A stretch of DNA of 64,000 nt from Actinomycetota bacterium. GTDB taxonomy: Bacteria; Actinomycetota; Geothermincolia; Geothermincolales; RBG-13-55-18. The notes under the pieces were generated by a model, which was not told the origin of the DNA, did not search any database, and saw only the letters and a program-made list of their open reading frames with translations. The position numbers and the translations under genes were made by a program. Below are positions 26,807 through 60,210 of this stretch, in pieces (the first letter of the stretch is position 1; each line of letters opens with the position of its first letter). The stretch spans positions 1-64,000 of the forward strand of contig JACIXC010000017.1 of NCBI GenBank assembly GCA_014360655.1, read 5' to 3'.

Positions 26807-26835
26807 TTAACGCCGGGGAACGCATTGGATATAAT
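26807..26835 (+). promoter_or_regulatory. Sigma-70-like promoter for the selenoprotein gene
   Basis: TTAACG (26807-26812) and TATAAT (26830-26835) are spaced by 17 bases, 67 bases upstream of the ATG at 26903. The -10 box is a perfect match and the -35 matches at four of six positions. Confidence 0.55.
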
Positions 26836-26902: not shown

Positions 26903-27889
26903 ATGGACGAGCTGGTGAACCGGTGGATAGCCACGCTGGCACAGGTGCGCCTCATCCGCTACCTGAACTGAAACCAGGCCACTTTCGGTACCCTGGTAGG
27001 GTACCTGGGGTTCGCGGACAGGAGCGCCGTCAAGGCCGCCTGCCCCCTGGAGGGGGGAGCGGCGAGCGAGGGTTCCACCTGCGGGGTGGTGTCCGGGGGT
27101 TGCATGGCCCTGGCCCTGGGGCACCTGGCCGACCTGCTGGAGGGCGACGCCGCCAGGAAGGAAGCGCTCTACGGCCGCATGCGCGAATACGCCCTGTGGT
27201 TCGAGGAGAATTTCGGCAGCACGCTGTGCCGGGAGCGTTGCGGCGTGGATCTCACCAGGGTCGCCGGCTTCCTGGATTACATCCTCACCGGCAAGGTCTT
27301 CACCCGCTGCGTGGCACACGTGGGAAAGGCGGTCATGAAGCTCATCGAGATGGTCAACCGGCCCCTGCCGGAGGGCGAGGGAGCGGGAGATGCGTCACGG
27401 GTGGAGGGGGCGGAACCCGCCGGTAGGGCGGCCGGGTGCTGCGCGGCCGACGTCCTGCGGGGCATACGCGAGGCGACCGGGACAGGGAGCCTTTATCTGG
27501 AAATTTTATCCATATCGTTCGACGGGGGGATCGGGCTTTCCGGGGGCCTGTGTGGCGCCCTGGCTGGGGCTCTCCTGCCCCTGGGCGCGGTCTGGGGAAT
27601 AGACCCGAAAGAAGAGGGGATAGCCGGCACGGTGCGCGCCTTCCTGCGCGGACACTTCAACCTGTACACGGGAAAGGGGGAGCGTGAGCTCTGGGCGGTG
27701 GCCAACCCGCTGGTGCGGGAATTCCGCCGCAGGTTCGCATCGCTGGAGTGCAGGGATCTGACGGGGCGTTCCTTCGCGAGCGGGGTGGAGCTGGAGGCCT
27801 TCGTTGCAGCGTCCCCGCGCTGCGCCGAGGTGAAGGAGTGGTGCCGGGAAAAGGCCGTGGAGGCATTGAGGGACGTGGGGGAAGGGTGA
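26903..27889 (+). CDS. Two-domain C_GCAxxG_C_C family protein, probable selenoprotein (TGA at 26969-26971 read as Sec)
   Basis: One frame runs from ATG 26903 to TGA 27889, broken only by TGA at codon 23. Coding similarity continues on both sides: N-terminal RLIRYLN, then TGA, then NQATFGTLVGYLG. This matches the family's NC(A/S)QA segment, with TGA at the conserved cysteine. Domain 1 continues with EGSTCGVVSGGCMALALG, FGSTLCRERCGVDL and RCVAHVGKAV. Domain 2 (from about residue 175) repeats the pattern: GCCAADVLRGIREATG, GGLCGALAGALLPLG, FASLECRDLTG, PRCAEVKEWCREKA. Domain 2 has Cys180 where domain 1 has the TGA. A SECIS-like hairpin follows the TGA. These cysteine-rich proteins are thought to be redox-active; the substrate is unknown. 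The alternative, a stop mutation with restart at 27086, is less likely. Confidence 0.82.
26987..27005 (+). promoter_or_regulatory. Bacterial SECIS-like hairpin
   Basis: GGTACCCT-GGT-AGGGTACC forms a perfect 8-bp stem with a three-base loop starting with G. The loop begins 24 bases after the in-frame TGA (26969-26971). Distance, stem length and loop G fit known bacterial selenocysteine insertion elements, which lie inside the reading frame just after the UGA. Confidence 0.75.
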
Positions 27890-28043: not shown

Positions 28044-29150
28044 ATGGCCGTAGCCATCATAAAGGCCGCCGGACCCGCAGAGGTGAAGAAAGCCCTGGAC
28101 CTCCTGGGGGGGATGGAGAGGTTCGTTTCCCCCGGAGAGAGGATAATGGTAAAACCCAACATATGCGCGGCAAAGGGCAGCGAGACGGGGACGGTCACCG
28201 ACCCGGAGCTGGTGGCCGAGGTGTGCCGCCTGGCAGCGGCGGCGGGGGCCGAGGTGGTGGTGGGAGAGAGCCCCATCCATCCCTTCCGCTCCTCGCGCGT
28301 CTTCCCCCGCGCCGGTTACGGGGATTTCCGGGAGCGCTACGGCTTCCCCCTCCTCGACCTGGACAGCCAGGAGAGGGTGGAGATACGCATCCCCCACGGG
28401 GTGGCGGTGAAGCAGGAGGTGGTGGCCAAACCCGTCCTGGAGTGCGACGGCATCATCAACATGCCCGTGCTCAAGACCCACCTCCAGACGGTGGTCTCTC
28501 TGGGGCTGAAGAACCTCAAGGGAGTGGTGCCGGGCAAGGACAAGCTCATCATCCACATCAACGGCCTGGACCAGGGCATCGTGGACCTCAACACGGTGAT
28601 CAGGTCGCGCCTGGTGGTGGTTGACGCCCTGGTGGGCATGGAAGGGAGCCTGGGGCCCACCAACGGGAAAGCGGTGAGGGTGGGAGCCATCGTGGCGGGG
28701 GACAACGTGGTGGAGGTGGACGCCGCCTGCGCCCGCATCATCGGCCTGGACCCGCGGGAGGTGGCCCACATACGCCTGGCAGCGGACAGGGGCCTCGGCC
28801 GCCTGGACGGTTTCGAGGTGCTGGGAGACGGCATCGAGGATGTGCGACGGCCCTTCGAGCTCCCCGCGCACCCGGACCTCAACCGCTTCATGATCAGCGG
28901 CGTCTTCCTGAAGATCTACGATTTCCTGCGCAGGCCCCTGGACCGCCTGCTGGGCCGCACCCTCAGCGGGCGCTTCGGCGAGGTGAGGCTGGACAGGGCC
29001 AGGTGCGACGGGTGCCGCATCTGCGTGAAGGCATGCCCGGTGGAGGCGGTCACCATGTCCGACGACCTGCCCGCCATCGACACCTCCCTCTGCATAGCCT
29101 GTTTCTGCTGCGCGGAGGCATGTCCCCGCGGGGCCCTCTCCCGGGCATAG
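28044..29150 (+). CDS. DUF362 protein with C-terminal 2[4Fe-4S] ferredoxin domain
   Basis: A 368-residue protein. Residues 1-280 are a DUF362 domain (MVKPNICAAKGSETGTVTDPELVAEV, NMPVLKTHLQTVVSLGLKNLKGVVPGKDK, LVVVDALVGMEGSLGPTNGKAV, VVEVDAACARIIGLDP). The C-terminus has two cluster motifs, CDGCRICVKACPVEAV and CIACFCCAEACPRGAL. DUF362-ferredoxin proteins are common in anaerobes; their reaction is unknown, and electron transfer is the only safe statement. AAGGAGG precedes the ATG. It lies just upstream of a methyltransferase gene (8-bp gap) and 150 bp after the selenoprotein gene, perhaps in one operon. Confidence 0.88.
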   Translation: MAVAIIKAAGPAEVKKALDLLGGMERFVSPGERIMVKPNICAAKGSETGTVTDPELVAEVCRLAAAAGAEVVVGESPIHPFRSSRVFPRAGYGDFRERYGFPLLDLDSQERVEIRIPHGVAVKQEVVAKPVLECDGIINMPVLKTHLQTVVSLGLKNLKGVVPGKDKLIIHINGLDQGIVDLNTVIRSRLVVVDALVGMEGSLGPTNGKAVRVGAIVAGDNVVEVDAACARIIGLDPREVAHIRLAADRGLGRLDGFEVLGDGIEDVRRPFELPAHPDLNRFMISGVFLKIYDFLRRPLDRLLGRTLSGRFGEVRLDRARCDGCRICVKACPVEAVTMSDDLPAIDTSLCIACFCCAEACPRGALSRA

Positions 29151-29158
29151 GAGAGAAG

Positions 29159-29908
29159 ATGAAGCTGACCAAGAAGGCGTACGCCGTCATCTACGAGAAG
29201 GAGGACGAGCACTGGTGGTTCGTGGGAAGGCGCAAGGTCCTCGGCGCCCTCCTCGACCGGCTGGACCTGCCCGATGAGACCCGCATCCTCGACGTGGGCT
29301 GCGGCACGGGCGGCAACTTCCCCTTCCTCGCCCGCTACGGCGTGGTGGAAGGGTGCGACTATTCCGAGGAGGCGGTGCGCTTCTGCCGCCTGCGGGGCGC
29401 GGCGCCGGTGCGGGAGGCCAGCATATACGAACTCCCCTACGAGGACGGCTCCTTCGACCTCGTGACCTGCCTGGACGTCATCGAGCACCTGCGGCTCGAC
29501 CTCCCGGCCTTCCGGGAACTGGCAAGGGTGCTCAGACCGGGAGGGCACCTCCTGGTCACGCTTCCGGCGAGGCCGGGTCTCTACAGCGATTTCGACTGCC
29601 TGGCCGGCCATCTGCGCCGCTACACCCTGGATGAGGCGCGGGAGCTGCTGCGGCGCAGCGGTTTCCGTCCCCTGCGCCTGACCTCGTACACCGTGCTCGT
29701 GCACCCGCTGGTCCGCTACTACATGCGGCGGGGCAACATCGTCGAGGGCAAGGGGAAATACACCTGGGGCATGGATACCGTCTTCCCGGCCACGCAGGGG
29801 CTGCTCCGCGCGCTCCTCGCGCTGGAGGCGCGCCTCATCTCCCGTTTCGACCTGCGGGGAGGGGCCTCGCTGGCGGTGCTGGCGCAGAAGGAACAGGCGG
29901 CGGCCTGA
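29159..29908 (+). CDS. Class I SAM-dependent methyltransferase
   Basis: A 249-residue methyltransferase with motif I ILDVGCGTGGNFPFLARYG near residue 45, VEGCDYSEEAVRFC as acidic loop, FDLVTCLDVIEHL as motif II/III and ELARVLRPGGHLLVTLPA after it. The N-terminus EKEDEHWWFVGRRKVL is typical of Methyltransf_11/UbiE-like enzymes that modify lipids or sugars. The ATG at 29159 has GAGAGAAG just upstream. It is translationally close to the DUF362 gene. The acceptor is unknown. Confidence 0.88.
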   Translation: MKLTKKAYAVIYEKEDEHWWFVGRRKVLGALLDRLDLPDETRILDVGCGTGGNFPFLARYGVVEGCDYSEEAVRFCRLRGAAPVREASIYELPYEDGSFDLVTCLDVIEHLRLDLPAFRELARVLRPGGHLLVTLPARPGLYSDFDCLAGHLRRYTLDEARELLRRSGFRPLRLTSYTVLVHPLVRYYMRRGNIVEGKGKYTWGMDTVFPATQGLLRALLALEARLISRFDLRGGASLAVLAQKEQAAA

Positions 29909-60135: not shown

Positions 60136-60210
60136 TGGTGGAGCCGATGGGATTTGAACCCACGACCTCTGCCGTGCGAAGGCAGCGCTCTCCCGCTGAG
60201 CTACGGCCCC
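60136..60210 (-). tRNA. tRNA-Ala (anticodon CGC)
   Basis: A complete cloverleaf reads on the minus strand from GGGGCCG to CGGCTCC plus ACCA. The anticodon stem CTGCC/GGCAG encloses loop TTCGCAC, giving anticodon CGC (codon GCG). The acceptor stem has the G3-U70 wobble pair that defines alanine tRNAs. The T-arm contains GGTTCAAATCC. The CCA end is encoded in the DNA. Confidence 0.95.

Follow-up and report, generated by a model that had tools for sequence, protein, structure and literature searches.

A probable tandem C_GCAxxG_C_C selenoprotein with predicted selenocysteine in its first domain only

The gene at 26903–27889 of the window, by which the whole analysed stretch of 64,000 nucleotides is meant, very probably encodes a selenoprotein of 328 residues. 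Judged from sequence comparison, the UGA at its codon 23 would be read as selenocysteine (Sec). The insertion of Sec is very likely because of the exchange of UGA and Cys among homologues, the Sec machinery of the genome, the fit of a downstream hairpin to the bacterial SECIS (bSECIS) model, the reduced synonymous change in this hairpin, and the fossil hairpins retained by some of the Cys homologues. An earlier note on this DNA had proposed the same decoding and had named two observations that would count against it, a genome without selB and tRNA-Sec, and close relatives without similarity upstream of 27000. Its proposal is supported: the genome has both genes, and close relatives keep coding sequence upstream of 27000, with UGA or Cys at the codon. 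The features of the gene are as follows.

26903–27889 (+): predicted selenoprotein gene, 328 residues, tandem C_GCAxxG_C_C domains (two PF09719 matches; 20 frame-conserving homologues)
26807–26835 (+): predicted sigma-70-like promoter, TTAACG-17 nt-TATAAT (consensus scan)
26969–26971 (+): TGA codon 23, predicted selenocysteine at the first conserved Cys position of domain 1 (homologue columns, alignment with Cys180)
26987–27005 (+): predicted bSECIS hairpin, 8-bp stem and GGU loop (folding, synonymous-codon tests, bSECIS limits)
26945–27370 (+): domain 1, with U23, C60, C67, C109 and C136 (invariant or near-invariant columns of the homologue and domain alignments)
27421–27886 (+): domain 2, with C180, C217, C283 and C307, Cys in place of Sec (Pfam, NCBIfam, alignments)

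The gene and its two domains

The source genome (G000), that of an uncultured actinobacterium, has a size of 2.97 Mb and is 99.96% complete. The frame starts with the ATG at 26903 and ends with the TGA at 27887–27889, and the TGA at codon 23 is its sole internal break. The promoter-like site lies 67 nt upstream of the frame and has 10 of 12 consensus matches, where chance alone would give 0.1 sites of this kind in the region. The Pfam model PF09719 was matched in two stretches, one in each half of the protein, with 105 bits against a cut-off of 27 (E 2.9e-30). Re-reading agreed with the earlier note on the opening ATG, the single in-frame TGA, the stop codon, the presence of a promoter upstream and the duplicated C_GCAxxG_C_C architecture.

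The four-Cys pattern of PF09719, including the C-G-A/V motif, is present in both halves as U23, C60, C109 and C136, and as C180, C217, C283 and C307. In the alignment of the domains, residue 23 shares a column with Cys180, previously given as its counterpart in the second half, and with the Cys that comes first among the conserved ones in single-domain relatives (NCAQA). By this alignment, the four Cys positions of the family are kept in each domain and the predicted Sec is found only at position one of domain 1. The AlphaFold model (pLDDT 88.9, pTM 0.89) is nearly all helical, and its helix pattern is repeated across the halves. No relative in the PDB was found by phmmer, by profile or by Foldseek with this model as the query; the matches to AvrBs3 and macromomycin were taken as spurious.

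Decoding of codon 23

A tRNA-Sec gene with the anticodon UCA was found in the source genome (81.8 bits), and selB, selA, a yedF-like gene and selD lie near it on one contig. Therefore, all of selA, selB, selC and selD, whose search had been advised, are present. SelB scored above its family cut-off, and selA and selD were named from their own sequences. The selD gene has its own in-frame UGA (SGUAAKVGPEDL) and starts upstream of its called start, which independently supports the use of Sec by this genome. It is located at L009:150-1205 (+) on G000:C5 with the UGA at L009:210-212 (SGUAAK), and thus a start called at the GTG at 222 would be too late. In the window itself, a tRNA gene at 60139–60210 (-) is the sole Rfam match. 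The ribosome would meet the UGA at codon 23 while SelB with Sec-tRNA-Sec binds the hairpin 15 nt downstream, and Sec would be put in instead of termination; both machinery and signal are evident from the sequence.

The hairpin has a perfect 8-bp stem (GGTACCCT/AGGGTACC) closed by the loop GGT, and refolding gave the same 3-nt loop with G as had been described before. From the TGA, the distance is 15 nt to the start of the hairpin and 23 nt to the start of the loop. The published limits of bSECIS elements are a loop of 3–9 nt, a stem of 4–16 bp, a G in loop positions 1–2 and 16–37 nt from UGA to loop (PMC13188914). The 3-nt GGU loop, the 8 bp and the 23 nt are all within these limits. The stability of the 47-nt stretch was ordinary against dinucleotide shuffles (z -0.70). 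The evidence for an above-chance hairpin is comparative, and comes from the synonymous-codon shuffles, the suppressed synonymous change and the conserved exchange of UGA and Cys. In the f1 genes, the synonymous difference was 0.157 for codons 24–35, 0.488 for codons 2–22 and 0.506 for codons 36–140. The hairpin codons thus have about one third of the synonymous change of their flanks, which indicates that the RNA is more conserved than the protein alone would explain. Against synonymous versions of the same peptide, the real hairpin was in the best 0–5.4% for 11 of the 12 TGA genes, although such tests across homologues are not independent because the genes are related. It was no better than the synonymous versions in the TGA gene of G027 (fraction 0.353), and was ordinary in five distant Cys or Ala genes. 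In the f4 genomes, both the peptide and the stem are different (in G019, GTACCGTC-GTG-GACGGTAC), and a hairpin with a loop G is found at the matching place. The stem change from G019 to G020 is compensated, G-C to A-T.

The protein search covered 98 relatives, one of which is Candidatus Solincola quzhuomuensis, and gave 20 homologues in 19 of them, all of the same class (19 of its 31 genomes). The same 19 only were obtained from a profile search of 396 genomes of the phylum, and the 365 that do not belong to the class had no match. In the plasmids searched, the tandem protein had no homologue and only single-domain relatives of 28–43% identity were found. Codon 23 is TGA in 12 of the 20 homologues and Ala in one; the Cys that had been anticipated at this codon is found in the other seven. 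All 11 genomes with a TGA gene have tRNA-Sec. The only homologue-bearing genome without a tRNA-Sec match is G017 (82% complete), where codon 23 is Cys. Three Cys genes of genus g4 retain the hairpin, with 7 pairs in G004, the full stem in G010 and one further mismatch in G008. They look like recent Sec-to-Cys conversions with a fossil SECIS. In the protein tree, the g4 Cys genes sit beside TGA genes, and four changes of the codon-23 label are needed. Since this tree is unrooted, the proposed direction from Sec to Cys rests on the fossil hairpins.

Several related genes were observed besides. The orthologue of G002 (L030, G002:C48:41401-42297) has Ala in place of Sec or Cys (TSATYA) despite the presence of tRNA-Sec and SelB, and the redox site of its domain 1 may have been lost. 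A second, diverged tandem paralogue in G014 (L032 / L096, G014:C184:12087-13007) has UGA at the matching codon and a different neighbourhood. Single-domain C_GCAxxG_C_C genes of G014 (L066:1444-1869 (+)) and G012 (L070 (-)) have UGA at the first Cys (GYGUAEA) and are likely to be further selenoproteins; their downstream folds match the bSECIS model less clearly.

If the UGA were a true stop, translation would yield a leader peptide of 22 residues, and a shorter protein would start at a downstream GTG (e.g. 27086); or else the gene would be a pseudogene. An open GTG-started frame of 267 aa is indeed present at 27086–27889. Standard gene calling would start there, so that a shortened protein would be annotated and the Sec would be missed. 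However, the UGA is kept at one codon in 12 homologues from several genera and two families, and the Cys homologues read straight through codon 23. Besides, the 22 codons upstream of it are constrained at the protein level (pN/pS 0.39), and the shortened form would lack the first Cys together with a portion of the domain. A true stop is therefore highly improbable.

That a selC-like tRNA-Cys and SelB would jointly decode the UGA as Cys, and not as Sec, is more improbable still. Among the tRNA genes of the source genome is a tRNA-Cys(GCA) whose variable arm is long and which the tRNA-Sec model scores at 59 bits, and a selC* tRNA-Cys with a proposed SelB* has been described in a review (PMC7609411). 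However, the anticodon of the selC-like tRNA-Cys is GCA and not UCA. The search for this tRNA gave nothing in G006, G013, G014, G019, G020 and G027, which have TGA genes, and G004, G008 and G016, where codon 23 is Cys, do have it, whereas the true tRNA-Sec accompanies every TGA gene. Decoding by this tRNA was rejected by its anticodon and its distribution. Reassignment of UGA in the code was also rejected, since most genes here still end in TGA (7 of 10 checked in the window). The tRNA-Cys(GCA) gene itself lies at L002:1501-1589 (-), G000:C5:58365-58457, and is above the Rfam tRNA-Sec cut-off. Long-arm tRNA-Cys-like genes were seen in 11 of the 29 genomes searched. The selC* tRNA-Cys was reported from Firmicutes, Thermodesulfobacteria, Nitrospirae and Proteobacteria, not from Actinomycetota (PMC7609411). 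The predicted acceptor stem of the tRNA-Cys in the source genome has 7 bp, and thus it may not be of the 8/4 type.

Gene neighbourhood and proposed role of residue 23

Two genes follow the predicted selenoprotein gene.

28044–29150 (+): first gene downstream, for a DUF362 protein with a 4Fe-4S domain (Pfam)
29156–29908 (+): SAM-dependent methyltransferase, conserved neighbour in the family (Pfam, synteny)

The DUF362/4Fe-4S gene lies directly 3' of the selenoprotein gene in eight genomes (G000, G001, G003, G005, G007, G009, G011 and G013). The best NCBIfam match of the methyltransferase was the DVU_1556 family, below the cut-off. In family f1, the gene belongs to a cluster that is conserved and also encodes thiolases, OB-fold proteins, a radical-SAM protein and the methyltransferase; the selenoprotein-family gene and the methyltransferase gene are separated by a different gene in G004 and G006. 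Outside f1 the neighbours differ, and the genes of G019 and G027 adjoin a DsbH/DUF255 thioredoxin-like protein. From its position, the DUF362 ferredoxin-like protein could be an electron partner. The function of the gene is not firmly readable from its neighbourhood.

The participation of Sec23 in a selenol/thiol pair of anaerobic redox chemistry is reasonably likely, and it is much less certain than the insertion of Sec. The redox role is suggested by the family name ('putative redox-active') and by the conservation of Cys and Sec; as no solved structure resembles the protein and it has no relative of established activity, we infer the chemistry of the Sec23 site from these. Sec23 would probably be the attacking or more reducing residue of the pair. 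Its partner would be a conserved Cys of domain 1, one of C60, C67, C109 and C136, and domain 2 may be a Cys-only partner or a regulatory half. It is unlikely, though far from negligible, that the inserted Sec23 is a ligand of a metal or an Fe-S cluster bound by the C_GCAxxG_C_C domain rather than a catalytic selenol. Four Cys are conserved in each domain, a 4Fe-4S protein is encoded next door, and a single-domain relative has a weak match, at E 4e-4 and well short of the cut-off, to the model of split-Soret cytochrome c. However, no PDB relative was found by sequence, profile or fold, and Sec replaces catalytic Cys more often than structural ligands. The split-Soret link was dropped, as the PDB profile search gave it no backing.

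Comparison with known selenoproteins

The C-GCAxxG-C-C family is already among the listed selenoprotein families (PMC9312934, PMC13188914), and '(seleno)protein' is part of the name of NCBIfam TIGR01909. Therefore, the protein at 26903–27889 is not of a new type. The description 'new-type selenoprotein' in the earlier note holds for the selenoprotein, but not for the new type, given the listing of PF09719/TIGR01909 and the single-domain relatives with UGA. What appears to be new is the tandem arrangement of two domains of which the first alone has Sec; so far it is seen, and conserved, in one class. The earlier note had called a duplication with Sec in one half unusual; the tandem form was not found in the 365 genomes of the phylum outside the class. 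No description of it was met in the literature that could be searched, whose coverage was partial and leaves absence unproven.

By a narrow balance, we favour a class-restricted tandem selenoprotein whose roles were split by duplication, with a selenol in domain 1 and a thiol in domain 2, and whose Cys relatives record in their fossil SECIS a loss of Sec in progress. The protein would extend its selenoprotein family by a member with two domains, and offers a natural comparison of Sec and Cys at one site inside one chain. Orthologues with Sec and with Cys are closely related, and a leftover SECIS is present in three of those with Cys, which would make the conversion of Sec to Cys directly readable.

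The Sec-containing SelD, which in this genome has an in-frame UGA of its own, shares the recoding machinery with the protein, but is an unrelated and long-known selenoprotein. The HUGP/GUXX-star fusion selenoprotein (NF045501) is a distant match of domain 1, with residue 23 at model position 24. However, the score is 53.3 bits against a cut-off of 325, and the present protein has two C_GCAxxG domains and no Sec-containing tail. The DVU_1555 family C-GCAxxG-C-C protein (NF045669) belongs to the same superfamily, and a DVU_1556-like methyltransferase is encoded near 26903–27889. It is single-domain, and the match of 46 bits is below its cut-off of 103, as is that of the methyltransferase below its own. 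The closest system is PF09719/TIGR01909 ('form 1' and 'form 2' in PMC13188914), which has the same domain, the four conserved Cys and known Sec members. In G014 and G012, a single-domain paralogue likewise has UGA at the first Cys. The table of PMC13188914 gives no motif with which the Sec sites of the published forms could be compared. The predicted selenoprotein differs in that the domain is doubled within a single chain and Sec is confined to the first copy.
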